Source: an uncultured Desulfobacteraceae bacterium
GTDB taxonomy: Bacteria; Desulfobacterota; Desulfobacteria; Desulfobacterales; Desulfatirhabdiaceae
Assembly: GCA_903953895.1 (NCBI GenBank)
Contig: CAJBLH010000037.1
Span: forward strand, 1-40,032
DNA length: 40,032 nucleotides
Reading direction: 5' to 3'
Part shown: positions 16,314 through 33,673 of the stretch, in pieces
How positions within the stretch are numbered: position 1 is the first letter of the stretch
How the letters are laid out: every line of letters starts with the position of its first letter
Made by a program: the position numbers and the translations under genes
The notes under the pieces: model-generated
Database searches by the model: none
What the model saw: only the letters and a program-made list of their open reading frames with translations
Told to the model about the DNA's origin: nothing

Positions 16314-17144
16314 ATGAACTACAACTATTACGATTTTAATGAACATCTATCTGATATAAAAGAATCATTGTCATTGATAGATGATCTGAAAGATCAGATT
16401 GACAAGAAAAAATCTTTGCAAAACGAACATTGGGCGGCAATCCAGGAAAAACTTCGAATTGACTGGACATTCGATTCCAATGCGATTGAGGGCAGTTCTC
16501 TTACAAAAGGCGAAACGCTGTTTTTTTTGAAAGAAGGACTGACCGTTGAGGGAAAACCCTTCAAAGATTTTCTCGATGCCAGAAATCATGCTGAAGCAAT
16601 CGACTGGCTCTATGAAGTGATAACCGACAGCCGCCCTGTCTCTCAGGGGCTTATCAAAGAAATGAATGCCTTACTGCTGTCTGGTGTGAAATATACGACG
16701 GCGATGAATCAGAGCGGTCAGAAAATCCGAAAACCTGCAACCCCAGGAAAATACAAAATTCTGCCGAACCATGTCTTGCAGATGGATGCAAGTATCCATT
16801 TTTATACCGATCCGATACATGTAGCTGATGAAATGGAAGCCCTGTGCCGGTGGATCGACGACAATATGGCCAAAAAACATCCTCTCGTCATCGCTTCGAT
16901 AGCTCATTACAATATGGTGAGAATTCATCCATTCGATGACGGCAATGGCCGGGGTGCAAGAATTCTGATGAATCTGATTCTGATAAAAAAAAGTTATCCG
17001 GTTGCAATCATTAAAAATACAGACCGTCGAAAATATCTGATAACACTGAATCAGGCGGATAAAGGCGATATTGAACCCTTTTTGAAACTTGTTTCCGACT
17101 CACTGATCGATACGGAAAGGATAATCATTGACGAGTTTCAATGA
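16314..17144 (+). CDS. Fic family protein (class II, likely AMPylator)
   Basis: Fic enzymes usually transfer AMP from ATP to a Ser, Thr or Tyr hydroxyl of a target. The 276-residue protein contains the complete active motif HPFDDGNGRGAR (205-216) with catalytic H205. An N-terminal autoinhibitory motif SNAIEG (55-60) fits the S/T-x-x-x-E-G/N pattern, which defines class II Fic proteins whose Glu blocks productive ATP binding. A short helical tail ends the protein; there is no obvious winged helix. No antitoxin-like gene is adjacent, as expected when the inhibitor is built in. The gene is visibly more A+T-rich than its neighbours and has a weak ribosome binding site, suggesting later acquisition. 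Confidence 0.9.
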   Translation: MNYNYYDFNEHLSDIKESLSLIDDLKDQIDKKKSLQNEHWAAIQEKLRIDWTFDSNAIEGSSLTKGETLFFLKEGLTVEGKPFKDFLDARNHAEAIDWLYEVITDSRPVSQGLIKEMNALLLSGVKYTTAMNQSGQKIRKPATPGKYKILPNHVLQMDASIHFYTDPIHVADEMEALCRWIDDNMAKKHPLVIASIAHYNMVRIHPFDDGNGRGARILMNLILIKKSYPVAIIKNTDRRKYLITLNQADKGDIEPFLKLVSDSLIDTERIIIDEFQ

Positions 17145-21094: not shown

Positions 21095-21408
21095 ATATCG
21101 CCTCCTGGTTGAATGTTTTTGAAACTATCAAAATTGACTTTTTCATTCATTCCCTCTTATCAGTGGGATAGGATCGGAGTGAGGGCCCAACATCTCAAGT
21201 TGTGACAGAAAAAGTATATAACCGAGACTTTGGGGCTTTGTCAATTTTTGAAGCGTAAATCGATTCGAAGACACTCAACGGATTGCATGATCGTTGCATT
21301 CATATTCTTCGGCATGGCTTGCTTTTTGAGTCAGATATGATTATAGTTCTTACCAGTTCCAAACCCGGAACGATTTTATTAACGCAAATGATAGCATTGA
21401 TCATACCC
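21095..21408. other. Divergent intergenic region between acyl-CoA synthetase and ClpX-like genes
   Basis: It holds the clear minus-strand promoter listed separately and a roughly 115-base leader before the acyl-CoA synthetase start. On the plus strand, TTGACT (21134-21139) and TTATCA (21157-21162), 17 bases apart, are a weaker candidate for the ClpX-heme operon, which would then have a leader of about 240 bases. The in-frame codons at 21283-21388 before the ClpX-like start look non-coding in composition. Confidence 0.45.
21216..21244 (-). promoter_or_regulatory. Sigma70-type promoter of the acyl-CoA synthetase gene
   Basis: On the minus strand a perfect TTGACA (21244-21239) is followed after 17 bases by TTATAT (21221-21216); with 18 bases the hexamer is TATATA. 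It points at the acyl-CoA synthetase gene and predicts a start near 21209, leaving a leader of about 115 bases. Confidence 0.6.
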
Positions 21409-23226
21409 ATGAATATTCAAAACGAAACTATACCCAATCCCAAAGAGATTGAAAAAGAAATCGGCGAATTCCTGGCAAAGAAATTTGGGGGTTCGGTGAA
21501 AATGGTATCCCAGGAAATGCTGCCTCAGGAAAACCTCAATGATGCTTCCGGCAAGACTCCGAAAGCGGAGGCTACGTTTCATTTCGATATGAAACCGGAA
21601 GATCTCATTTCCTATCTGGATCAATACATCGTCAAGCAGGATCACGCCAAGGCGGTTTTGGCCACCAAAATCTGCACGCATTTCAACCGCATCAAACATG
21701 CAACGTCTGTTGCGGCTTCGGCCCACGACATGGTGGGCAGCATTAAAAACAATGTGTTGATGATCGGCCCGACCGGTGTGGGAAAGACCTATTTGATCAA
21801 GCTGATCGCCAAAAAAATCGGAGTTCCCTTTGTCAAGGGGGATGCTACCAAGTTCAGCGAAACCGGTTATGTCGGCGGAGATGTGGAAGATCTGATTCGG
21901 GATCTTGTCCGTGAAGCCGATGACAACATCGAGAAAGCGCAATACGGCATCATCTATATCGATGAAATCGATAAAATCGCCGGCAGTCGGAACATGATCG
22001 GTGCGGACGTATCCCGTACCGGTGTTCAGCGGGCGCTGTTAAAGCCCATGGAAGAAACCGACGTGGACCTGAAGGTGCCGCATGATCCCATTTCCATGCT
22101 TCAGGAAATCGAACGTTTCCGTAAAACCGGAAGCCGAGACAAACGATCCGTCAACACCAAAAATATTCTGTTCATCATGAGCGGGGCTTTCGGCGATCTG
22201 ACGGAAATCATTCATCGGCGGATGACCCGGCAGAATATCGGTTTTGGTGCAACCGTCAAAACCCATCAGGACCGCCAGGATATTCTGGGCGAAGTCAAAT
22301 CTGAAGATCTGATCGAATTCGGATTTGAATCAGAGTTTGTCGGACGCCTTCCGGTGCGGGCCATTTTTGAAAGACTGACGGAAGCGGACTTGTTCGAAAT
22401 TCTCAAAAATCCCAACAATCCGGTCATCCTGGGCAAGAAACTTGATTTTGCTGCGTATGATATCGATATCAAATTTGATGATCCGGTACTGAAAGTCTTG
22501 GCGCAAAACGCATTCATGGAAAATACCGGCGCCAGAGGATTGGTTAGCGCCGTGGAAAAAGCCCTGCTGCTGTTTGAGCGCCATCTGCCGTCTACCGATG
22601 TCAAAAAATTTCCGGTTACATTATCCGTTCTGAAAACACCTGAGCAAGCACTCGCAAAACTCATCGACATCCAATCCATCAAAGAAGTTCTGGAAGAATT
22701 CGACAGACTGGCCAAAAGTGAACGCGCCTCCATCAAAGATTATTTACATGCAAACCGCAAGATTCTTTCAGAAAAGTACAATCTGACCCTGACCCCATCC
22801 AGAATGGACAACATCACCTCTTTTTATTCCAAAAACGTCATGGACGTGGGACAGATCATTCAGAAAGTTAAATCGTTTTATGACGAAATCAAAAAGATTG
22901 AACTCTCATTTTACAAGAAACACGATATCAATATCGTGCTGGAAGACAATGCCATCGATTTTATCATCGAACAACTGTCCAACCCCGCCGTCCATATTGC
23001 GGATTTTGAACGGCAGATTTCCATCGATTTCGAGCTGGGGCTCAAACTGGTCCGGGAAAAGACCGGCAAAAACAGGTTTTTCATTACCCGCAAAGCCCTG
23101 CTGGAACCCGAAGCCTTTATCAGCAATCTGATCAAAGACGAGCTTCGAAGCGTTTCGCTGAACCTCCCCAATCACCGAACTGAAACATCTCCCGACAAAA
23201 ACGCCAACCCGAAAGACAATTCATGA
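21409..23226 (+). CDS. ClpX-like AAA+ unfoldase with long C-terminal extension
   Basis: An ATP-driven unfoldase related to ClpX, 605 residues from the ATG at 21409 (no good ribosome binding site; 21388 is an alternative). Seen: Walker A GPTGVGKT (120-127), pore-1 loop GYVG (153-156), Walker B IIYIDEID (181-188), sensor-2 segment TGARG (373-377), and the ClpP-docking loop NIGFGATVK (276-284). Missing: the N-terminal Cys4 zinc domain of true ClpX, whose place is taken by about 60 residues without cysteines, and the RKH pore loop, replaced by GSRDKRS (241-247). Residues about 415-605 form a charged, helical extension not found in ClpX. Its TGA overlaps the ahbC ATG, so it is coupled to heme synthesis. 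Confidence 0.88.
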   Translation: MNIQNETIPNPKEIEKEIGEFLAKKFGGSVKMVSQEMLPQENLNDASGKTPKAEATFHFDMKPEDLISYLDQYIVKQDHAKAVLATKICTHFNRIKHATSVAASAHDMVGSIKNNVLMIGPTGVGKTYLIKLIAKKIGVPFVKGDATKFSETGYVGGDVEDLIRDLVREADDNIEKAQYGIIYIDEIDKIAGSRNMIGADVSRTGVQRALLKPMEETDVDLKVPHDPISMLQEIERFRKTGSRDKRSVNTKNILFIMSGAFGDLTEIIHRRMTRQNIGFGATVKTHQDRQDILGEVKSEDLIEFGFESEFVGRLPVRAIFERLTEADLFEILKNPNNPVILGKKLDFAAYDIDIKFDDPVLKVLAQNAFMENTGARGLVSAVEKALLLFERHLPSTDVKKFPVTLSVLKTPEQALAKLIDIQSIKEVLEEFDRLAKSERASIKDYLHANRKILSEKYNLTLTPSRMDNITSFYSKNVMDVGQIIQKVKSFYDEIKKIELSFYKKHDINIVLEDNAIDFIIEQLSNPAVHIADFERQISIDFELGLKLVREKTGKNRFFITRKALLEPEAFISNLIKDELRSVSLNLPNHRTETSPDKNANPKDNS

Positions 23227-24404
23227 TCGGTATTTCCAAGCTCTACTGCGGTACGGTCGAGCCTTCCGACGCCCTGCGGTATCATCGCATGTCATCGAGC
23301 CTGCCGTCCCATCTGCTTCAGTTTTCAAGCGACAAGAAACCGGTGGTGGTCTGGAACATGACCCGTCAGTGCAATCTGCGCTGTGTTCACTGTTACGCCC
23401 ATGCCAAAGATCATGCCGGAGCCGATGAACTCACTACCGCCGAAGGCAAAGCCCTGATCGACGATCTGGCGGCTTTCGGGTCCCCGGTCATCCTGTTTTC
23501 CGGCGGAGAACCCCTGGTCCGCACCGACCTTCCGGAACTGGCGGACTATGCGGTTCAAAAAGGCATGCGCGCTGTCATTTCCACCAATGGCACCCTGATC
23601 ACCGCAGAAATCGCCAGAACCCTCAAATCCATTGGCCTGTCTTATGTCGGCATCAGCCTGGACGGCATGGAAGAGATCAATGATCGGTTCCGGGGCGTCA
23701 AAGGGGCATTTCAGTCGGCCCTAAGCGGCATCCGAAACTGTCAGGATGCCGGCATCAAGGTCGGCCTGCGTTTTACGATCAACAAATTCAATTCAGCGGA
23801 AATTCCCAGCATTTTCAACCTGCTGGAAACCATGAACATCCCCAGGGCCTGTTTTTATCATCTGGTGTATGCCGGACGGGGTTCCAAGCTGGTCGAGGAA
23901 GACTCCACCCGCGAAGAAACCCGGGTCATCGTGGATTTGATCATGGATGAAACCAAAAGGCTTCATGACCACGGGATGCCCAAGGAAATTCTGACGGTCG
24001 ATAACCATGCCGACGGCCCCTATGTGTATCTGAGACTTCTCCGGGAAAATCCCGAAAGGGCAGCCGAAGTTCTGGAACTATTGAAGATGAATGAAGGCAA
24101 CAGCTCCGGCCGGGGTATCGGCTGTGTCAGTTGGGACGGCCGGGTTCATGCCGACCAGTTCTGGCGCCATTACAGTTTCGGCAATGTCCGCGAGCGGCCG
24201 TTTTCCGAAATCTGGACCGATGTATCCAATCCCCTCATGATGCAGCTCAAAGACAAAAAACCCTATGTAACAGGACGTTGCGCCACCTGTCGGTGGCTGG
24301 ATATCTGCGGCGGCAATTTCAGGGTCCGCGCCGAAGCCATTACCGGCGATATCTGGGCGCCCGATCCGGCGTGTTATCTGACAGATATCGAAATCAGAAA
24401 ATAG
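23223..24404 (+). CDS. ahbC: 12,18-didecarboxysiroheme deacetylase AhbC (radical SAM)
   Basis: Radical SAM enzyme of the alternative heme pathway that removes the acetate side chains of 12,18-didecarboxysiroheme to give Fe-coproporphyrin III. The 393 residues start with MIGISKLYCGTVEPSDALRY, a segment I associate with AhbC. The SAM-cluster motif is C50-x3-C54-x2-C57, with GGEP in LFSGGEPLVR. The C-terminus carries a second cysteine-rich cluster region (CVSWDG, GRCATCRWLDICGGN, PDPAC). The ATG overlaps the ClpX-like stop (ATGA), and hemB follows after 8 bases. AhbD and NirJ are close relatives; order and N-terminus favour AhbC. Confidence 0.88.
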   Translation: MIGISKLYCGTVEPSDALRYHRMSSSLPSHLLQFSSDKKPVVVWNMTRQCNLRCVHCYAHAKDHAGADELTTAEGKALIDDLAAFGSPVILFSGGEPLVRTDLPELADYAVQKGMRAVISTNGTLITAEIARTLKSIGLSYVGISLDGMEEINDRFRGVKGAFQSALSGIRNCQDAGIKVGLRFTINKFNSAEIPSIFNLLETMNIPRACFYHLVYAGRGSKLVEEDSTREETRVIVDLIMDETKRLHDHGMPKEILTVDNHADGPYVYLRLLRENPERAAEVLELLKMNEGNSSGRGIGCVSWDGRVHADQFWRHYSFGNVRERPFSEIWTDVSNPLMMQLKDKKPYVTGRCATCRWLDICGGNFRVRAEAITGDIWAPDPACYLTDIEIRK

Positions 24405-24412
24405 AGGATATT

Positions 24413-25387
24413 ATGCTGTTTCCCGAATACCGCCCCAGAAGACTGCGGCAGAATGAATCGTTTCGCCGGATGATCCGCGAAACCGTATTGAATACGAACG
24501 ATTTCATCATGCCATTGTTTGCCGTCGAAGGCAAAGATGTCAAAAACCCGATCCCTTCCATGCCCGGGCAATTTCAGATGTCCGTTGACAACATTGTCAA
24601 GACTTGTCAGGAAATTCAGAAGCTGAATATCCCGGCGATCATGCTTTTCGGTGTTCCCGGCAAAAAAGATGCCCTGGCAACCAGTGCCTATGCCAAGGAT
24701 GGGATTGTTCAGCAGGCTGTCAGAAACTTAAAAAACAAGGTGCCGGATCTGGCTGTCATCACCGATGTCTGCCTGTGTCAGTACACGGACCACGGTCATT
24801 GCGGGGTGGTTGAAAAAAATGTGGTGGATAATGATGCCTCCCTGGACCTTCTGGCTCGAACGGCGCTTTCTCATGCCAAGGCCGGTGCGGATATGGTGGC
24901 CCCGTCGGATATGATGGACGGCCGGGTGGGGGAAATCCGGGAAAGCCTGGATGAAAACGGATTCTCTCACGTGCCGATCATGTCGTATGCCGCCAAATAC
25001 TGCTCTGGCTTTTACGGCCCATTCCGCCAGGCTGCGGATTCCGCACCCAAATTCGGAGACCGCAGAACCTATCAGATGGACCCGGCCAATGCCCAGGAAG
25101 CCATCCGGGAAGTGATGATGGATATCGAAGAAGGAGCGGACATCATCATGGTCAAACCCGCTCTGGCCTATCTGGATGTCATCTACCGGGTCCGGCAGGA
25201 ATGCGATCTGCCGGTTGCCGCCTATAACGTCAGTGGAGAATACGCCATGATCAAGGCCGCCGAACAGCTCGGATGGCTGGATGGAACTCGGGTGATGATG
25301 GAATCCCTTACCGCCATCAAGCGGGCCGGAGCCGATATGATTCTGACGTATTTCGCCATGGATGCCGCCCGGGAGCTTCAGACCTGA
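24413..25387 (+). CDS. hemB: Porphobilinogen synthase (5-aminolevulinate dehydratase)
   Basis: Condenses two 5-aminolevulinate molecules into porphobilinogen, the common precursor of siroheme, heme and cobamides. The 324 residues carry the Schiff-base lysines K195 (SYAAKYCSGFYGPFR) and K248 (MVKPALAYLD), and a zinc site DVCLCQYTDHGHCG (C120, C122, C130), so this is a zinc-type enzyme. Start 24413 follows AGAGGA by 6 bases and matches the family N-terminus (FPEYRPRRLRQNESFRRM); the longer upstream frame only reads through ahbC. Its TGA overlaps the ahbD ATG by one base. Confidence 0.97.
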   Translation: MLFPEYRPRRLRQNESFRRMIRETVLNTNDFIMPLFAVEGKDVKNPIPSMPGQFQMSVDNIVKTCQEIQKLNIPAIMLFGVPGKKDALATSAYAKDGIVQQAVRNLKNKVPDLAVITDVCLCQYTDHGHCGVVEKNVVDNDASLDLLARTALSHAKAGADMVAPSDMMDGRVGEIRESLDENGFSHVPIMSYAAKYCSGFYGPFRQAADSAPKFGDRRTYQMDPANAQEAIREVMMDIEEGADIIMVKPALAYLDVIYRVRQECDLPVAAYNVSGEYAMIKAAEQLGWLDGTRVMMESLTAIKRAGADMILTYFAMDAARELQT

Positions 25388-26457
25388 TGAAACACGGTCA
25401 TGCCGAAAACAAGGGATCATCACTTCGCCTGGTTGCCTGGGAAATCACCCGCAACTGCAACCTGTCCTGCGTTCACTGCAGAGCCTCGGCCACCAACGGC
25501 CCCTATGAAGGCGAGCTGGAAACCGCCGCCTGTTTTCACCTGCTGGATCAAATCGCGGAGGTGGGCTCTGCCATTGTCATCCTGACCGGCGGAGAACCCC
25601 TGTTGCGATCCGACATTTTCGAAGTTGCCGCATATGGAACATCCAAGGGCCTGAAAATGGTCATGGCCCCGAATGGTACGCTCATCACCCCGGAAAACGC
25701 CGGAAAGATGGCGGCATCCGGCATCAAGCGGATCAGTATCAGCCTGGACGGCGCCACCCGAGAAAAACACGATTTGTTCAGAGGGGTGAGCGGTGCTTAC
25801 GATGGTGCACTGCAGGGAATTGCCAATGCCAAAGCTGCAGGGATCGAATTTCAGATCAACACCACCATCACCCAGACCAATCTGGATGAAATCCCTAAAA
25901 TTCAGGATCTGGCAATTGCGTTAGGAGCGGTGGCCCATCATATTTTTCTGCTGGTGCCCACGGGCCGCGGAAAATACATCGCCGATAAAGCCATCGACGC
26001 TGAAGAATATGAAGCCACGCTTAACTGGTTTTACGATCAGCGGGAGAAAACGCCGCTGCAACTCAAAGCCACCTGTGCCCCGCATTATTACCGGATACTT
26101 CGCCAGCGTGCCAAAAAAGACGGCAGGACCGTCTCCTTTCAAACCCACGGCCTCGATGCGGTCACCCGCGGGTGTCTGGGTGGAACGGGTTTTTGTTTCA
26201 TATCGCATACCGGGATCGTTCAGCCCTGTGGTTTTCTCCAGCTCAATTGCGGAGATATCACCCAGACTTCTTTTGCCACGATATGGAACACTTCAGAAAT
26301 CTTTCTTTCCTTGAGGAATTATGATAATTTGAAGGGAAAATGCGGAAAGTGCGAATATCGAAAAGTGTGCGGCGGGTGCCGGGCCAGAGCTTTTGAAGCG
26401 ACCGGAGATTATCTGGCGGAAGAACCCCTCTGTCTGTATCAGCCGCAGCCCTCTTGA
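25387..26457 (+). CDS. ahbD: Heme synthase AhbD (radical SAM/SPASM)
   Basis: Catalyses the last step of siroheme-dependent heme synthesis, converting the two propionates of Fe-coproporphyrin III to vinyl groups. The 356 residues have the radical SAM triad C24-x3-C28-x2-C31 (ITRNCNLSCVHC), GGEP in ILTGGEPLLR, and a C-terminal auxiliary-cluster region with CAPHYYRI, RGCLGGTGFCFI, QPCGFLQLNCG and CGKCEYRKVCGGCRARAFE. The ATG at 25387 overlaps the hemB stop, and an earlier in-frame start lies within hemB. The downstream CBS gene is 15 bases away. AhbD is distinguished from AhbC here by its N-terminus and the CGGCRAR end. Confidence 0.88.
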   Translation: MKHGHAENKGSSLRLVAWEITRNCNLSCVHCRASATNGPYEGELETAACFHLLDQIAEVGSAIVILTGGEPLLRSDIFEVAAYGTSKGLKMVMAPNGTLITPENAGKMAASGIKRISISLDGATREKHDLFRGVSGAYDGALQGIANAKAAGIEFQINTTITQTNLDEIPKIQDLAIALGAVAHHIFLLVPTGRGKYIADKAIDAEEYEATLNWFYDQREKTPLQLKATCAPHYYRILRQRAKKDGRTVSFQTHGLDAVTRGCLGGTGFCFISHTGIVQPCGFLQLNCGDITQTSFATIWNTSEIFLSLRNYDNLKGKCGKCEYRKVCGGCRARAFEATGDYLAEEPLCLYQPQPS

Positions 26458-26472
26458 AGGAAAGGACAGCCC

Positions 26473-27078
26473 ATGAAAATCAAATCCCTGATGATCACAA
26501 GTCCGGTCACCGTTACCGAAAATGCCTCGATTCAGCAGGCCATCGGATTGATGAAGGAAAAAGGATTCCGGCATCTTCCCATTGTTTCGAAGGGGATGAA
26601 GCTGAAGGGGTTTGTGACGCTGGCCGATCTCAAGCAGGGATTGATTCCCGCCATGGTCGGAGATCTTACCCTGTCGGACCTGATGATCACCGACCCCATA
26701 ATTGTCGGTCCGGATGACGATCTGGAAACCGCGGCCCGGCTGATTTACGAACATAAAATCAGCGGTATGCCTGTTGTCGAAAATCAACAGCTCGTGGGGA
26801 TCATCACGGAGTCGGACATTTTGCGCGCCTTCATCGACATGATGGGGATTCTGACCGGCGGCTCCCGACTGGAAGTGATGGTCGGGGATCAACCTGAAGC
26901 CTTCAATCAGGTTGTTGAACTCATCCGGAATCAAGGCGGCGAAATCATCAATATCGGCATGACCGCTCAGCAATCCAGCGACCGCGTGTACACATTCCGT
27001 TTGTCCACCCTTAAAACCACCACCATTGAAAAAGCGCTTGTCAATGCCGGGTTTCAAATCCTGAAAGACAAAGATTGA
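26473..27078 (+). CDS. CBS-domain pair protein with ACT-like C-terminus
   Basis: A 201-residue cytoplasmic sensor-type protein. Two CBS motifs (about 1-58, MITSPVTVTENASIQQAIGLM; and about 65-122, MITDPIIVGPDDDLETAARLI ending TESDILRAF) form one Bateman module, which usually binds adenine nucleotides or SAM. Residues about 135-200 look ACT-like (LEVMVGDQPEAFNQVVELIR, GGEIINIGMT). No enzyme domain is attached, so it probably acts on a partner. AAGGAAAGGA lies upstream of the ATG. It is the last gene of the ClpX-heme operon, directly before a terminator. Control of heme synthesis by an adenylate or SAM signal is a reasonable but unproven idea. Confidence 0.82.
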   Translation: MKIKSLMITSPVTVTENASIQQAIGLMKEKGFRHLPIVSKGMKLKGFVTLADLKQGLIPAMVGDLTLSDLMITDPIIVGPDDDLETAARLIYEHKISGMPVVENQQLVGIITESDILRAFIDMMGILTGGSRLEVMVGDQPEAFNQVVELIRNQGGEIINIGMTAQQSSDRVYTFRLSTLKTTTIEKALVNAGFQILKDKD

Positions 27079-27229: not shown

Positions 27230-29275
27230 ATGATGATCTGTAATGACAATATTTTCGATGCGATGACGATCAAGCTGGACCCGGAGCTGCCGGAGTCGCC
27301 GGAGTTTGTGCCGGGCATCCGGCGGGCGCCGGATCGCGGTTTCCGCCTGACAAAGAATCAGACGCGGGTGGCGTTGAAAAATGCGCTCCGGTACATTCCG
27401 CAGGCCCATCATGCGGTTCTGGCTCCGGAATTTTTAAACGAGCTGATGACCCGGGGGCGGATTTACGGCTACCGCTTCCGCCCGCCCGGAGCCATTCGGG
27501 CAAAGTCTGTGGATGCCTACACAGGGCGGTGTGTGGCCGGCAAGGCTTTTCAGGTGATGATAGACAACAACCTGGATTTTGATCTGGCGCTCTATCCATA
27601 TGAACTGGTCACCTACGGGGAAACCGGGAGCGTATGCCAGAACTGGATGCAGTACCGGCTCATCAAAAAATACCTGGAGGTTCTCACCGAAGACCAGACT
27701 CTGGTCATGGCCTCGGGTCATCCGCTGGGACTCTTCCGTTCCCAGCCCGACAACCCGCGGGTGATTATCACCAACGGCCTGATGGTGGGGGTGTACGACA
27801 ACGAAGATGACTGGGATGTGGCGGTGCAGATGGGAACATCCAGTTATGGTCAGATGACGGCCGGCGGATGGATGTACATCGGCCCGCAGGGCATTGTGCA
27901 TGGCACCTACAACACGCTGTTGAACGCAGGTCGCCTGAAATGCCGGGTGTGCGGCGATGGGGATTTGAAAGGCATTCTGTTTGTTTCATCCGGTCTTGGC
28001 GGCATGAGTGGCGCACAGCCCAAGGCAGCCGAGATCGCCGGTGCTGTTTCAATCGTGGCAGAGGTCGATGCTTCCCGAATCAAAACCCGGTGCGATCAGG
28101 GCTGGGTTCAAAAAACATCGTCCGATCTCAAGGAAGTTTTTGATTGGGCGCTGGCAGCCAGAAAATCGAAAATACCGCTTTCCATCGGCTTTCACGGAAA
28201 TGTGGTGGATCTGCTGGAATATGCCGTGGCGGAAAACATTCAGATCGATCTCCTGTCCGACCAGACGTCCTGTCACGTCGCCCACAGCGGCGGGTACTGC
28301 CCACAGGGGCTGACGTTCGCGGAGCGGACTGCCCTTCTGGCAAGCGACCGGAAAAAATTCTGTGCGCTGGTGGACAAAAGTCTTCACCGCCATTATGAAC
28401 TGATCAAGATTCTGACTGAGCGCGGCGTCTATTTCTTCGACTACGGCAATGCATTCATGAAGGCGGTTTTCGATGCCGGGGTCACGGAAATTGCCCGTAA
28501 CAAAACAGACACCAAGGATGGGTTTATTTTTCCCTCGTATTTCGAGGATGTCATGGGGCCGATTTTTGACTATGGATACGGTCCGTTTCGCTGGGTGTGC
28601 CTGAGCGGCAAACCGGAGGATCTGGTCAAGACCGACCGGGCGGCCATGGCCTGCATCGACCCGGAGCGTCGAAGCGAGGATCGCGACAATTACAACTGGA
28701 TTCGGGATGCCCGGAAGAATCAATTGGTGGTGGGAACCCAGGCCAGAATTCTCTATCAGGATGCCAGGGGACGGGTAGATATCGCCCTATCTTTTAACCG
28801 GATGGTGCGAAGCGGCGAAGTCGGTCCCATCATGATCGGCCGCGATCATCATGATCCGGGCGGTACGGATTCGCCGTTTCGGGAGACTGCCAATATCCGG
28901 GACGGCAGCAATGTCACGGCAGACATGGCCACCCACTGCTTTGCCGGCAACTGCGCCCGAGGCATGTCGCTGGTGGCTCTGCATAACGGCGGCGGTACGG
29001 GTATCGGCAAGGCGATCAACGGCGGGTTCGGGCTGGTTCTCGACGGAAGCCTTCGTGTGGATGAGACGATCCGGTCAGCACTTTCCTGGGATGTGATGGG
29101 CGGGGTGGCCCGAAGGAACTGGGCCCGCAATCCCAATGCCATGTCGGTTGCCGTGGAATATAATCTGAACAATCCGACCGGCGATCATATCACGATTCCC
29201 TATATGGCGGATGAGGCGCTGATTGAGTCGATTTTGGAAGATAAATTCAAGGATGAAGGGGGGCCGTTGGTTTGA
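27230..29275 (+). CDS. hutU: Urocanate hydratase (long form)
   Basis: Second step of histidine breakdown: adds water to urocanate to give 4-imidazolone-5-propionate, using tightly bound NAD+ as an electrophile. The 681 residues are the long type, like animal urocanases, rather than the roughly 555-residue pseudomonad form. Seen are SGHPLGLFRSQ, the NAD-binding glycine motif SSGLGGMSGAQPKA, the active-site region DQTSCHVAHSGGYCPQG, and the C-terminal HNGGGTGIGKAINGGFG. It opens the hut operon and has a strong G-rich ribosome binding site. An ATG one codon later is an alternative start. ftcD begins 22 bases after its stop. Confidence 0.95.
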   Translation: MMICNDNIFDAMTIKLDPELPESPEFVPGIRRAPDRGFRLTKNQTRVALKNALRYIPQAHHAVLAPEFLNELMTRGRIYGYRFRPPGAIRAKSVDAYTGRCVAGKAFQVMIDNNLDFDLALYPYELVTYGETGSVCQNWMQYRLIKKYLEVLTEDQTLVMASGHPLGLFRSQPDNPRVIITNGLMVGVYDNEDDWDVAVQMGTSSYGQMTAGGWMYIGPQGIVHGTYNTLLNAGRLKCRVCGDGDLKGILFVSSGLGGMSGAQPKAAEIAGAVSIVAEVDASRIKTRCDQGWVQKTSSDLKEVFDWALAARKSKIPLSIGFHGNVVDLLEYAVAENIQIDLLSDQTSCHVAHSGGYCPQGLTFAERTALLASDRKKFCALVDKSLHRHYELIKILTERGVYFFDYGNAFMKAVFDAGVTEIARNKTDTKDGFIFPSYFEDVMGPIFDYGYGPFRWVCLSGKPEDLVKTDRAAMACIDPERRSEDRDNYNWIRDARKNQLVVGTQARILYQDARGRVDIALSFNRMVRSGEVGPIMIGRDHHDPGGTDSPFRETANIRDGSNVTADMATHCFAGNCARGMSLVALHNGGGTGIGKAINGGFGLVLDGSLRVDETIRSALSWDVMGGVARRNWARNPNAMSVAVEYNLNNPTGDHITIPYMADEALIESILEDKFKDEGGPLV

Positions 29276-29297
29276 TTCCTTATGGAGAGCTTCTACC

Positions 29298-30221
29298 ATG
29301 CCTGGAAAGTTGATCGAATGCGTTCCCAATTTCAGTGAAGGCCGAAGGCAGGAGGTGATTGACGCCATTGTCGGATGCTTTCGGAACAGAAATGGGTGTT
29401 ATCTTTTTGATCACCGTGCGGATAAGAACCATAACCGCCTGGTTGTCAGTCTGGTCGGAGAGCCCGAGTCGATACAGGATGCCCTGATCGATGCCGCTAA
29501 GGTGGCTGTCCGCCACATCGATATGGAAAAGCATCAGGGCGGTCATCCACGAATCGGGGCCGTGGATGTAATTCCGTTTACACCGGTCAAAGCCATCACC
29601 ATGGCCGAATGTGTAGACTTGGCCCATACTTTCGGCAACCGCTTTCATGCGGCAACCGGAGTTCCTGTGTATTATTATGAAGAGGCGGCCCGGAATCCGG
29701 ATCGAAAAAATCTGGAAGTTATTCGAAAAGGTCAGTATGAGGTTCTGAAGACCGAGATCGGCCGGCCGGAACGGCATCCGGATGTCGGTCAACCAGCACT
29801 TCATGCCAGCGCCGGGGCCACGGTCATCGGGGCCCGTCCGTTTCTGGTGGCGTTCAACGTCAACCTGAACACCCGTGATCTGCAGATAGCAAAGACTATT
29901 GCTCATGCCGTTCGGGCATCCGGGGGCGGTTTCAGCCATGTGAAGGCTATTGGACTGGCGCTTGCCGACCGTGGCATGGTTCAGGTCAGTCTGAACATTG
30001 TGGATCATGAGAAAAATCCACTCTACCGGGTTCAGGAGTTTGTCCGCATGGAAGCACGGCGCTGGGGTGTGGAGATCGTTGAAACCGAGGTATACGGCAT
30101 GGTGCCTGCGGCGGCTTTGCTTGGCAGCACCGAGTACTACATGCAGATTGCCGGCTTCGATGCCCGACAGGTGGTTGAATTGCGCCTCCTAGAGATGATG
30201 GAGGAAGGCGGTGACGCGTAA
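29298..30221 (+). CDS. ftcD: Glutamate formimidoyltransferase
   Basis: Transfers the formimino group of formiminoglutamate to tetrahydrofolate, releasing glutamate. The 307 residues correspond to the transferase half only; the cyclodeaminase is encoded separately two genes on, unlike the fused animal enzyme. Diagnostic blocks are LIECVPNFSEGRRQEVIDAI at the N-terminus, DHRADKNHNRLVVSLVG, HQGGHPRIGAVDVIPF, and VGARPFLVAFNVNLNT-type text (VIGARPFLVAFNVNL). ATG 29298 follows GGAG by 10 bases and gives the family N-terminus; an upstream in-frame codon reads through the end of hutU. Its last 11 bases overlap hutI. Confidence 0.95.
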   Translation: MPGKLIECVPNFSEGRRQEVIDAIVGCFRNRNGCYLFDHRADKNHNRLVVSLVGEPESIQDALIDAAKVAVRHIDMEKHQGGHPRIGAVDVIPFTPVKAITMAECVDLAHTFGNRFHAATGVPVYYYEEAARNPDRKNLEVIRKGQYEVLKTEIGRPERHPDVGQPALHASAGATVIGARPFLVAFNVNLNTRDLQIAKTIAHAVRASGGGFSHVKAIGLALADRGMVQVSLNIVDHEKNPLYRVQEFVRMEARRWGVEIVETEVYGMVPAAALLGSTEYYMQIAGFDARQVVELRLLEMMEEGGDA

Positions 30222-31461
30222 ACTTATCCGAAACGGGCGGTTTTTTACGCCGATAGACGAGGGATCACCTCTGGCCGGTGACCGGCAGGGGCGGGTGGCA
30301 AGCTGGCTCAATGGCGCCATGGTGGTTTGTGATGGGGTGATCGAACGCATCGGAACCGAGTCCGAGATCATGTCGGACATGAATTCCAGCCGATTCGACG
30401 AGGTTGTTGACTGCGGTGGGAACTGCGTCATTCCCGGTTTTGTCGATTCCCATACCCACATGTGTTTTTCTGGCAGACGTGAAGCGGAATTCGGGCTTCG
30501 TCTGAAGGGCGCATCGTATCTGGATATTCTAAAAGCTGGCGGCGGCATCCTTTCGTCGGTTCAAGGGGTTCGGAAAATTTCTGCGGAACAACTGATGCAA
30601 GCCACCTTTGTTATGGCTGTTTCGGCTTTCCGGCTCGGTACCACGACCCTGGAGATCAAGAGCGGTTATGGTCTGAATATCGAAACAGAACTGAAAATGC
30701 TTTCGGCCATTGATGGGGTCCGGCGACAAACGTCGCAGGATATTGTGGCCACGTTCATGGGCGCACACGCCGTGCCGGAAGAATTCCGTAATTCTGCCGA
30801 TGATTATGTGAAACTGATCATCCATGACATGATTCCAGCCGTTGTCGGCCAGGGCATTGCCCGGTACTGCGATGTCTTCTGTGAGCAGGGCGTGTTTTCA
30901 ATTTCCCAGAGCCGCAGGATTTTGACGGCCGCCCAAGAAGCGGGGCTGGGGCTTAAAATTCATGCCGATGAAGTTCACGATCTGGGTGGGGCAGCGCTTG
31001 CCGCCGAAATGCGGGCCGTTTCCGCCGAGCATCTCCTGGCTGCCGGAGACAGCGGCATCGCTTCTCTGGCAACGGCTGGGACCATTGCCGTTCTCTTGCC
31101 CGGAACCGCCTACAGTCTGCAAAAACCCTATGCCAGGGCTCGGTATATGATTGCGGCCGGAGTACCTGTGGCCATTGCCACAGACTGCAATCCGGGGTCG
31201 AGTTTTACCGAATCCATGCCCTTTATTTTCGGACTTTCTGTGATGAACATGGGGATGACGCCGGAAGAAGCCTTGACAGCGGCCACCTTGAATGCGGCAT
31301 ATGCTATCGGAATGGCGGATCGGGTAGGGAGTTTCGACAAGGGCAAACAGGCGGATTTTCTGATTCTGGACGGAGAATCCCCGGCCATTCTGGCTTATCA
31401 TGCCGGTGTTTCACCGGTGATTGCGATTTACAAGAAAGGGAAAGCGCTTGAAATTGGCTGA
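30211..31461 (+). CDS. hutI: Imidazolonepropionase
   Basis: Third step of the pathway: opens the ring of imidazolonepropionate to formiminoglutamate. A metal-dependent amidohydrolase of 416 residues with the signature DSHTHMCFSGRR (metal ligands H81, H83), MGAHAVPEEFR, the third ligand in KIHADEVHDLGG, SAEHLLA, and ATDCNPGSSFTESMPF. The start is the GTG at 30211: GGAGG lies about 6 bases upstream, and it overlaps the end of ftcD, so translation is coupled. The 3' end overlaps fchA by 14 bases. Confidence 0.95.
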   Translation: MTRKLIRNGRFFTPIDEGSPLAGDRQGRVASWLNGAMVVCDGVIERIGTESEIMSDMNSSRFDEVVDCGGNCVIPGFVDSHTHMCFSGRREAEFGLRLKGASYLDILKAGGGILSSVQGVRKISAEQLMQATFVMAVSAFRLGTTTLEIKSGYGLNIETELKMLSAIDGVRRQTSQDIVATFMGAHAVPEEFRNSADDYVKLIIHDMIPAVVGQGIARYCDVFCEQGVFSISQSRRILTAAQEAGLGLKIHADEVHDLGGAALAAEMRAVSAEHLLAAGDSGIASLATAGTIAVLLPGTAYSLQKPYARARYMIAAGVPVAIATDCNPGSSFTESMPFIFGLSVMNMGMTPEEALTAATLNAAYAIGMADRVGSFDKGKQADFLILDGESPAILAYHAGVSPVIAIYKKGKALEIG

Positions 31462-32089
31462 TTTAACCATAACTGATTTTGTCCGTGAACTGGCATCGGT
31501 TTCGCCTGCGCCCGGCGGCGGCAGCGTGGCGGCCCTCTGTGCCGGACTGAGCGCGGCTCTTTGTTCCATGGTGGCCAGATTGACTCGCGGCAAGGAAAAA
31601 TATCGTGCCGACTGGCAGGCTATGGATAATCTGATTCATCAGGCTGACCCTCTGATGGAGCGGTTCGTTGAGTTGATGGATGCAGATACCAGTGCCTATC
31701 GTCTGGTCGTGGATGCCCTGCGCTTGCCCAGGGAAACTGCCGAAGAACAGATGGTGCGAAAGAATGCGATTGAATCGGCAAGCCGAAAGGCAGCAGAAGT
31801 TCCCATGGAAACTTTAAAATATACCCTGAGACTGGCCGGTTTTGTAAAAGAGGCCGTAGCAAAAGGAAATGTCAACTGCATTACCGATGCCGGTACAGCC
31901 GCACTTCTTGTTCGAACGGCAGCCTATGCGGCCGCCTATAATGTGCGTATCAATCTGAGCGGGATCACCGACACTGTTTTTCTGGAAAACTGTCGATCTG
32001 AAGTTCGCCGGATTATTTTTTGCATTGATGATGTTATCGATGCGGTCGAGCAGCATGTGGATTCACTATTGAAAATGGCGGAAGGCTGA
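31448..32089 (+). CDS. fchA: Formimidoyltetrahydrofolate cyclodeaminase
   Basis: Converts 5-formimino-tetrahydrofolate to 5,10-methenyl-tetrahydrofolate and ammonia. The 213 residues are largely helical; the signature is FVRELASVSPAPGGGSVAAL near the N-terminus, with NVNCITDAGTAALL late in the protein. Start TTG 31448 is preferred: GAAAGGG lies about 8 bases upstream and it yields the usual N-terminus (KLADLTITDFV); the earlier TTG at 31421 would add nine odd residues. It overlaps hutI by 14 bases, so it is coupled. Together with ftcD it sends the histidine C2 carbon into the folate pool. Confidence 0.92.
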   Translation: MKLADLTITDFVRELASVSPAPGGGSVAALCAGLSAALCSMVARLTRGKEKYRADWQAMDNLIHQADPLMERFVELMDADTSAYRLVVDALRLPRETAEEQMVRKNAIESASRKAAEVPMETLKYTLRLAGFVKEAVAKGNVNCITDAGTAALLVRTAAYAAAYNVRINLSGITDTVFLENCRSEVRRIIFCIDDVIDAVEQHVDSLLKMAEG

Positions 32090-32107
32090 AGCCAAAAGGT
32101 GTTGAAA

Positions 32108-33673
32108 ATGCATCCCATCTTAATTGACCGGGGTAAATTGACCATCGATGACGTGGTGGCTGTTTCCCGCGAAAAAGCGCCGGTCGGTGTTTCCCCGGAA
32201 GGTTATGGTCGGGTGGAAAAAGCAACCCGCCTGGTGGCCCGGTGGGTCCGGGAAGAAAAAGTGATCTACGGTATTACCACGGGCTTTGGGGCGATGTGTG
32301 ACGTTACGATATCGGCGGCGGATTCCCGTGTCCTTCAGAGAAAAATTCTCATGAGTCATGCCGCAGGTGTCGGCGATCCGTTGCCCGAAGATGTGGTCCG
32401 GGCGATCATCGCTATCCGGCTCCATGACCTGTTTATGGGGTATTCTGCCTGCACCAACCAGACACTCAACCATCTCGTGACTTTTCTAAATCGTGGGGTC
32501 ACCCCGGTGATTCCGGCAAAAGGCTCTGTGGGCGCCAGCGGTGATCTGGCGCCGACCGCTCATCTCGGACTGGTTCTGATCGGAATGGGAGAAGCGTTTT
32601 ATCGGGGAAAACGCATGAGCGGGGGGCAGGTACTGGAAAAGATCGGTCTGACGCCGCTGGTTCTCGAAGCGGGTGAAGGGTTGGCCCTGATCAACGGCAC
32701 TCAGGTCATGACCGGCATTGCGGCCCTGGTAGTCCATGATGCCGTCCGACTGGCCAAACTGGCCGATGTGGCCTGCGCCATGAGCCTCGAGGTACTCATG
32801 GGCAGCAGTTCCGAATTCGACCCCCGGATTCATCAGGTCAGGCCCCACCCCGGACAGATTGCCTCGGCGGAGAACATTCTGCGATTGACCGAGAACAGCC
32901 GGATCATTCTTTCCCATCAAGGATGCGCCCGGGTGCAGGATGCCTATACCCTGAGATGTTCTCCCCAGATTCACGGGGCCAGCAAGGATGCTGTGATTCA
33001 CGCCGGAAAAGTCGTTACGATCGAAATCAACGCCACCACGACCAACCCCCTGATTTTTACGGATACCGAAGAGATTCGGCTGGGGGGCAATTTTCATGGA
33101 CAACCCATTGCCATGGCGGCCGATTATCTGTCCATGGGCATTGCGGAACTGGGAAATGTCTCTGAAAGGCGGATCGAGCGACTCGTCAACCCGCAGTTAA
33201 GCGAACTGCCGGCTTTTCTGGTCAAGAATGGCGGGTTGAATTCCGGTTTCATGATCGCTCAGTACGTGGCGGCGGCCCTGGTATCGGAAAACAAGGTGCT
33301 GGCGCATCCTGCCTGCGTCGATTCGATTCCGACATCCGCCAACAAGGAAGATCACGTTTCCATGGGAACCATCGCCATCCGCCAGTGCCGGGAGATTCTC
33401 GACAACGTGGAACATGTTCTGGCCGTGGAAATGCTGTGTGCGGCTCAGGCTTACGATCTGCTGACCGAAAGGATTCATCTGGCGGCAGGGGAGGGGACCC
33501 GTGTCGCGTATCGGGTGATCCGTGAAAAAATCCCGTATCTGGATCAAGACCGGGTGCTGGCCACAGATATTGCCGCCATGGTATCCCTGATCCGGTCCGG
33601 AATTTTGCTGACCGAAATCGAAAATGCCGTCGGCAGCCTCAATCTGACAGCGCCCCACTCTGAATTTCCCTGA
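32108..33673 (+). CDS. hutH: Histidine ammonia-lyase
   Basis: Entry step: removes ammonia from L-histidine to give trans-urocanate. The 521 residues contain the Ala-Ser-Gly triad (143-145, in GSVGASGDLAP) that cyclises to the MIO cofactor, the catalytic tyrosine in VIYGITTGFG (Y54), and FHGQPIAMAADYL and SSSEFDPRIHQVRPHPGQ. Related MIO enzymes act on tyrosine or phenylalanine, but the hut context makes histidine the substrate. ATG 32108 was chosen over GTG 32099 since AAAAGG lies 8 bases upstream. It comes last among the classical hut genes and is followed after 12 bases by a ferredoxin gene. Confidence 0.94.
   Translation: MHPILIDRGKLTIDDVVAVSREKAPVGVSPEGYGRVEKATRLVARWVREEKVIYGITTGFGAMCDVTISAADSRVLQRKILMSHAAGVGDPLPEDVVRAIIAIRLHDLFMGYSACTNQTLNHLVTFLNRGVTPVIPAKGSVGASGDLAPTAHLGLVLIGMGEAFYRGKRMSGGQVLEKIGLTPLVLEAGEGLALINGTQVMTGIAALVVHDAVRLAKLADVACAMSLEVLMGSSSEFDPRIHQVRPHPGQIASAENILRLTENSRIILSHQGCARVQDAYTLRCSPQIHGASKDAVIHAGKVVTIEINATTTNPLIFTDTEEIRLGGNFHGQPIAMAADYLSMGIAELGNVSERRIERLVNPQLSELPAFLVKNGGLNSGFMIAQYVAAALVSENKVLAHPACVDSIPTSANKEDHVSMGTIAIRQCREILDNVEHVLAVEMLCAAQAYDLLTERIHLAAGEGTRVAYRVIREKIPYLDQDRVLATDIAAMVSLIRSGILLTEIENAVGSLNLTAPHSEFP

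Follow-up and report, generated by a model that had tools for sequence, protein, structure and literature searches.

Why should a gene for a ClpX-like unfoldase stand at the head of an operon for heme synthesis? The question is raised by a stretch of 40,032 nucleotides from an uncultured Desulfobacteraceae bacterium (assembly GCA_903953895.1, contig CAJBLH010000037.1, positions 1 to 40,032 of the forward strand), here called the window. It contains a five-gene run on the + strand, in which a ClpX-like AAA+ gene is followed by ahbC, hemB, ahbD and a CBS-domain gene. The ClpX-like protein and its paralog group are named ClpXL in the following. The gene arrangement is real and deeply conserved; a function in the control of heme synthesis is plausible but unproven.

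A ClpX paralog ahead of heme genes

The sequence-only reading of the window had described a ClpX-like gene whose stop codon overlaps the start of ahbC as ATGA, with hemB, ahbD and a CBS gene following at gaps of 15 bases or less. The coordinates confirm this description. The stop codon TGA of the ClpX-like open reading frame overlaps the ATG of ahbC at 23223-23226, and the intergenic gaps along the run are -4, 8, -1 and 15 bases. The genes and the relevant parts of ClpXL are as follows.

21318..21351, + strand: promoter-like element CTTGCWTTTT-N10-TGATTATAGT (sigma-70-like -35/-10), from the motif score in the upstream regions of the order
21388, + strand: possible alternative start of ClpXL, a second in-frame ATG, from the translation
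21409..23226, + strand: ClpXL, ClpX-type AAA+ unfoldase paralog of 605 amino acids, from the open reading frame, profile, sequence and fold matches
21763..21792, + strand: Walker A, IGPTGVGKTY, from the alignment
21856..21882, + strand: pore-1 loop, SETGYVGGD, from the alignment
22075..22161, + strand: loop VPHDPIS...NTK, replacing the RKH loop of canonical ClpX, from the alignment
22237..22245, + strand: IGF tripeptide (ClpP-docking loop), from the alignment
22525..22542, + strand: sensor 2, TGARGL, from the alignment
22843..23160, + strand: C-terminal extension, a degenerate second AAA+ lid domain, from profile-profile comparison and the structure model
23223..24404, + strand: ahbC, 12,18-didecarboxysiroheme deacetylase (radical SAM), TIGR04546 at 764.7 bits (cut-off 650)
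24413..25387, + strand: hemB, porphobilinogen synthase, PF00490 and NF006762 at 522.2 bits (cut-off 297)
25387..26457, + strand: ahbD, heme b synthase (radical SAM), TIGR04545 at 559.9 bits (cut-off 500)
26473..27078, + strand: CBS protein with two CBS stretches, final gene of the run, PF00571

ClpXL is not the canonical ClpX of its host. A separate canonical clpX was located by match at G000:C196:63604-64632, adjoining the sole clpP match of the genome (62835-63401). The canonical protein passes both NCBIfam clpX equivalog cut-offs (659.1 against 359 and 638 against 370.75), whereas ClpXL falls below both (313.2 and 285.7). Nor does ClpXL qualify as HslU, its score of 165.9 lying below the hslU cut-off of 362.45. 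The Pfam and NCBIfam matches obtained include no model dedicated to the ClpXL subfamily.

With the ClpX of ClpXP, which gives the best PDB matches by sequence and by fold, ClpXL shares the AAA+ core. Walker A, Walker B and the GAR sensor 2 are all present in the window's protein, the GYVG pore-1 loop occurs in all 128 in-phylum rows, and all 155 aligned ClpXL sequences, 27 of which come from loci outside the phylum, have a ClpP-docking tripeptide of the form [ILVM]-G-[FL]. The 50 Foldseek matches listed are ClpX chains or models, many of them in ClpXP complexes. In contrast to ClpX, the window's ClpXL gives no match to the zinc domain zf-C4_ClpX at E 0.01; the genome's own ClpX, used as control, matches PF06689 at 1e-18. 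The RKH loop reads GGRKH in the canonical ClpX and is replaced in ClpXL by the VPHDPIS...NTK stretch, which is well conserved across the phylum although not invariant. Finally, ClpXL carries about 190 extra C-terminal residues. Residues 478-586 represent a second copy of the AAA+ lid according to one profile-profile comparison of lid 1 with lid 2 (probability 97.6, E 3e-12), and the strand-helix order occurs twice in the AlphaFold2 model (A3, mean predicted local distance difference test score, pLDDT, of 83.1, used in preference to A1 with 64.8). ClpXL is predicted to form hexamers and to bind ClpP.

ClpXL looks like the first gene of a transcription unit, because a strongly conserved promoter-like element lies upstream of it and only short gaps separate it from the heme genes. 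From the 30 loci of the order, 23 upstream regions were taken, and in 22 of these the element reaches a score of 15 or more out of 20, compared with 2.6% of 230 first-order shuffles; the motif had been derived from the same regions on which it was scored. In most relatives the -10 part ends very near the ClpXL start, and the ClpXL transcript may thus be nearly leaderless there. No regulator palindrome is shared by the 23 regions. Patterns for FNR, CRP, Rex and CIRCE-like sites were found in none of the 23, and a PerR-like pattern in three. No Rfam RNA reached the gathering score at the operon; the only hit is a tRNA at 617-690.

Conservation across the phylum and two heme routes

The sequence-only reading had proposed a survey of Desulfobacterota for this gene beside ahbC, and the neighbourhood turns out to be conserved rather than unique to one strain. 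Within the same order ClpXL is found in 54 of 58 genomes, in 53 of them at 567 bits or more and in one as a C-terminal fragment, while the remaining four contain canonical ClpX only or give no match. At the 29 same-order loci other than that of the window, ahbC lies directly downstream on the same strand in 26; one has hemB downstream, one has neither gene within 1500 bases and one ends at a contig edge. For the phylum an even sample of 297 genomes was used, with ClpXL called by its C-terminal profile at E ≤ 1e-6. ClpXL is present in 138 genomes, and its downstream neighbour is ahbC in 68 (24 families), hemB in 13 (9 families), dnaJ in 32, and another gene or cut off in 25. ClpXL is hence linked to ahbC or hemB in 81 of the 138 genomes, from 33 families of the sample. 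Simple open reading frame calling missed ClpXL, AhbC, HemB or possibly DnaJ at some loci. Neighbour labels were set from coordinates for ahbC in eight genomes and for hemB in G184, and likewise for G216 and G184 in the tree with outside-phylum rows described below.

The same order also occurs in one-contig genomes (for example G010, G085, G122 and G333) and in named organisms, among them Desulfosarcina alkanivorans, Desulfoluna butyratoxydans and Thermosulfurimonas dismutans. Among the best 80 of 457 named loci, from 74 of which a ClpXL open reading frame was obtained, the next gene by tblastn is AhbC in 28, HemB in eight, DnaJ in three, a receiver in two and another gene in 39. Of these 39, 29 are outside the phylum and 10 inside, some of them cut off. 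At the median, ahbC or hemB starts 14 bases after the end of ClpXL; the gap is at most 20 bases in 29 of 50 genomes and of the ATGA type (-4) in 12 of 50, with the first possible codon taken as the start.

It is the downstream side of ClpXL that is held in common. Both flanks are present in 107 genomes from 38 families, which were not chosen by context. Of the 5494 pairs that these genomes form between families, 1100 have the same downstream neighbour and 53 the same upstream neighbour. Within groups defined by the downstream gene, the upstream neighbour is shared in 48 of 1577 heme pairs and in none of 332 DnaJ pairs; the corresponding downstream values (701 of 1577 and 332 of 332) are circular, and only the upstream values are informative. 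Among representatives scanned, a histidine kinase and an NtrC-type sigma-54 regulator lie directly upstream of ClpXL at L161 and L156 (family f77) and at L229, L233 and L235.

AhbC was scored with TIGR04546, which matches 162 genomes at 1e-120; the curated cut-off is reached by 135 of them, and the 147 with at least 585 bits were kept. At least four of the 15 excluded genomes (G152, G174, G250 and G334) have the ferrochelatase HemH. On this scoring ClpXL and AhbC occur together in 95 genomes, ClpXL only in 43, AhbC only in 52 and neither in 107 (odds ratio 4.5; Fisher p 5e-10 without correction for kinship). In 67 of the 95 genomes ahbC adjoins ClpXL on the same strand, which together with G168, where a cut-off ahbC stands at the contig end, gives the 68 mentioned above. 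In the other 28, ahbC is found on a different contig (26) or on the same contig in opposite orientation (2).

The search for HemH and HemB covered 36 of the 43 ClpXL-only genomes, and that for HemH was then extended to all 297. HemH is present in 31 of the 43, and one of the 43 is G168. At the thresholds used, AhbC (147 genomes) and HemH (110 genomes) do not overlap in a single genome. ClpXL is followed by hemB, either adjoining or with a receiver-type gene between, in 13 genomes from 9 families, and 12 of these 13 contain HemH and no scored AhbC. Since AhbC and HemH do not co-occur, two distinct heme routes, by siroheme and by ferrochelatase, have the ClpXL-hemB link in common. HemB is the enzyme which both routes share.

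The proposal of a dedicated unfoldase within an Ahb operon therefore holds in part. ClpXL is of ClpX type, is distinct from canonical ClpX and heads a heme operon in 33 families. Its tie to the siroheme route was not borne out: 12 ferrochelatase-type genomes have the ClpXL-hemB link, 52 of 147 AhbC genomes are without ClpXL, and ClpXL stands beside dnaJ in 32 genomes. Specificity for the siroheme route was rejected.

Candidate functions of ClpXL

The retained docking loop, the missing zinc domain and the new entry loop are most simply understood if ClpXL is a ClpP-partner unfoldase with clients of its own. That it is co-expressed with heme genes in genomes of either route suggests a heme enzyme as one of these clients. 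Our leading reading, which we put forward tentatively, is that ClpXL acts with ClpP, is co-expressed with the enzymes of the heme pathway and controls their abundance or quality. ClpXL would dock on the only recognised ClpP of the cell, and the complex would control the amount or quality of the heme enzymes made from the same operon. The client would be HemB, AhbC, AhbD or an upstream enzyme. Conservation of the ClpP-docking motif favours degradation over remodelling or cluster insertion. The arrangement is suggestive, though no proof, of heme synthesis controlled by a protein-destruction machine of its own.

In some lineages a further component may take part. In Thermosulfurimonas, Thermodesulfobacterium and families f88, f121 and f144, ClpXL is separated from the heme gene by a small receiver-type gene, an arrangement that is seen, with ahbC or hemB as the heme gene, in 18 loci altogether (for example L072, L078, L143, L168 and L188). 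At L082 it follows ClpXL, and hemB is next by coordinates. In the genomes of f88 and f121 the adjoining heme gene is ahbC, not hemB. One representative of the protein matches PF00072, and the phosphoacceptor Asp, read by eye, is missing in 19 of 19. A stand-alone receiver-type protein tied to a ClpX-type unfoldase is also known in Caulobacter, where CpdR primes ClpXP and binds ClpX when unphosphorylated (PMC8973945, in excerpt). In contrast to CpdR, the protein described here lacks the Asp, the window's ClpXL is without the N-terminal zinc domain, and the protein occurs in some lineages only and not in the window. By analogy with CpdR, this pseudo-receiver may be a constitutive adaptor of ClpXL in Thermodesulfobacteria-like and ferrochelatase-type lineages.

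Several observations weigh against control of heme enzymes by ClpXL. A full-length ClpXL match is absent from 52 of 52 AhbC-only genomes when scanned with the full-length ClpXL profile; 50 of them contain canonical-type ClpX only (at most 344 bits, ending by position 448 of 589), and two give no match at E ≤ 1e-40. Twenty AhbC-only loci were fetched and AhbC was called in 18; ahbC, hemB and ahbD stand together in 10 of these 18, so that the same heme gene order exists without the unfoldase. ClpXL is thus not required for AhbC or AhbD, or for the Ahb route. Heme-capable genomes are only slightly commoner with ClpXL (126 of 138) than without it (131 of 159). In 32 of the 138 genomes, from 10 families, the following gene is of DnaJ/CbpA type (the type was assigned from one scanned representative), and in 25 the neighbour is of another type or cut off. 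Outside the phylum, all but one of the scanned neighbours lack any relation to heme, and that exception is weak. At the 80% level no position separates heme-context (72) from DnaJ-context (32) ClpXL, and in all seven regions the identity between the two contexts is within 0.02 of that among heme-context proteins (samples of 30 each). The lack of a context-separating residue argues against a heme-specialised ClpXL and a heme-specific client. Nor was a degron-like tail or a signature residue at the 85% level found between ClpXL-bearing and ClpXL-less genomes in AhbC (64 against 18), HemB (33 against 11) or AhbD (22 against 12).

Ranking close behind, and itself a serious candidate, is a general quality-control unfoldase that also works with ClpP. 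Its place in the heme operon would provide suitable expression or a general protection of oxygen- or metal-sensitive enzymes, with no heme-specific client. The absence of discriminating positions fits such a role, as does the occurrence of the same protein in a dnaJ context. In families f67 and f128 a Lon-like protease comes after ClpXL and DnaJ; at f67 loci such as L093, and at L089, the row of ClpXL, DnaJ and a LonB/LonC-like protease may form a proteostasis cluster. Relatives of ClpXL, mostly of 500-545 residues as called, occur in Poribacteria, Verrucomicrobiota, Calditrichota, KSB1 and others, where they adjoin unrelated genes; at 29 of 29 outside-phylum loci the next gene is none of AhbC, HemB, DnaJ or receiver. 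However, a constant downstream gene over many families beside a varying upstream gene is not what a neutral passenger should show, and the hemB link persists over two heme routes.

The gene that follows ClpXL in L257 (7631-8377) and in three closely related Poribacteria gives a partial match to the chlorite-dismutase family. The superfamily includes coproheme decarboxylase. A poribacterial heme link was nevertheless dropped, since the match to Chlor_dismutase is only partial and the L264 homologue has no NCBIfam match at 1e-15.

The history of the two contexts was followed in trees of 128 of the 138 ClpXL genomes, rooted on canonical ClpX, or of 46 in-phylum rows (about one per family) with 25 outside rows. 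Although no single position separates them at the 80% level, heme and DnaJ ClpXL separate in the tree. When the root is placed on the 25 outside-phylum ClpXL, the DnaJ contexts are deepest, and all 27 heme-context rows fall into one clade together with six unlabelled rows and no DnaJ row (support of 99 in the Shimodaira-Hasegawa-like approximate likelihood ratio test, SH-aLRT). Rooting on canonical ClpX, which forms a long branch, places the heme contexts deepest and reverses the order of events. With a p of 0.448 in the approximately unbiased (AU) test, a single clade of the DnaJ families is not rejected. With unlabelled rows excluded, one context switch is counted in the outside-rooted tree and two in the canonical-rooted tree, where one receiver-only row is a state of its own. 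Under either rooting the heme/DnaJ split appears to be old and nearly free of switches.

A more far-reaching form of ClpP-dependent control, which we regard as doubtful, would make ClpXL-ClpP a dedicated protease for tetrapyrrole feedback control in much of this Desulfobacterota-type phylum, in some lineages with the pseudo-receiver as adaptor. Its retention across the change between the ferrochelatase and siroheme routes would be due to a client that acts early and is common to both, such as HemB, and the system would be a separately arisen counterpart of the heme control by mitochondrial ClpX.

The main functional alternative to degradation is remodelling. ClpXL would partially unfold HemB, AhbC or another heme enzyme to assist the loading of metal, an Fe-S cluster or substrate. 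Mitochondrial ClpX provides the model, as it activates ALA synthase (ALAS) by partial unfolding (PMC7077987, in excerpt), and the operon unites two radical SAM enzymes with porphobilinogen synthase. A pure remodeller, however, has no need of the docking tripeptide that is kept in every aligned ClpXL, although this objection is weak, because mitochondrial ClpX also partners ClpP. The 52 AhbC genomes without ClpXL speak against remodelling as well, and we consider it unlikely. For an accidental neighbourhood or an assembly artefact no supporting point was found, and the recurrence of the order in one-contig genomes and in named organisms makes this explanation extremely improbable.

Elsewhere in the window, a gene for a Fic/DOC-family protein lies at 16314-17144. 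The region 3' of the heme run (27230-33673) contains urocanase, followed by open reading frames that resemble further histidine-breakdown genes; the Pfam check covers urocanase.

Relation to known systems and significance

Clp-type control of bacterial heme synthesis is already known, whereas a ClpX paralog heading a heme operon appears to be new. As the sequence-only reading had stated, glutamyl-tRNA reductase is a target of bacterial AAA+ proteases; those named for Salmonella are ClpAP and Lon (PMC5801465, in excerpt). In Staphylococcus aureus HemA is reduced in a clpX mutant, and the authors refer to Clp-dependent control as previously undescribed in the S. aureus context (PMC12710355, in excerpt). 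ClpAP and Lon, which control a bacterial heme-pathway enzyme by AAA+ proteolysis, are general proteases, whereas the present system involves a ClpX paralog within a heme operon. The mitochondrial ClpX/ALAS system likewise links a ClpX-type protein to heme synthesis (PMC7077987, in excerpt). Here, in contrast, the linked genes are hemB, ahbC and ahbD rather than that for ALAS, and the link is one of gene order. No open-access paper searched combines ahbC with ClpX (subscription papers were outside the scope), and among the papers listed, judged by titles and the opening of abstracts, none deals with a heme operon that contains a bacterial ClpX paralog.

Links between ClpX-type or other AAA+ proteins and heme synthesis are known from mitochondria and from Salmonella, where the general AAA+ proteases target glutamyl-tRNA reductase. 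ClpXL marks out a subfamily of ClpX with a new loop, an added lid domain and relatives in several phyla. Whether AAA+ unfoldases control heme synthesis more widely is a question that the conserved arrangement would make directly testable in culturable sulfate reducers.

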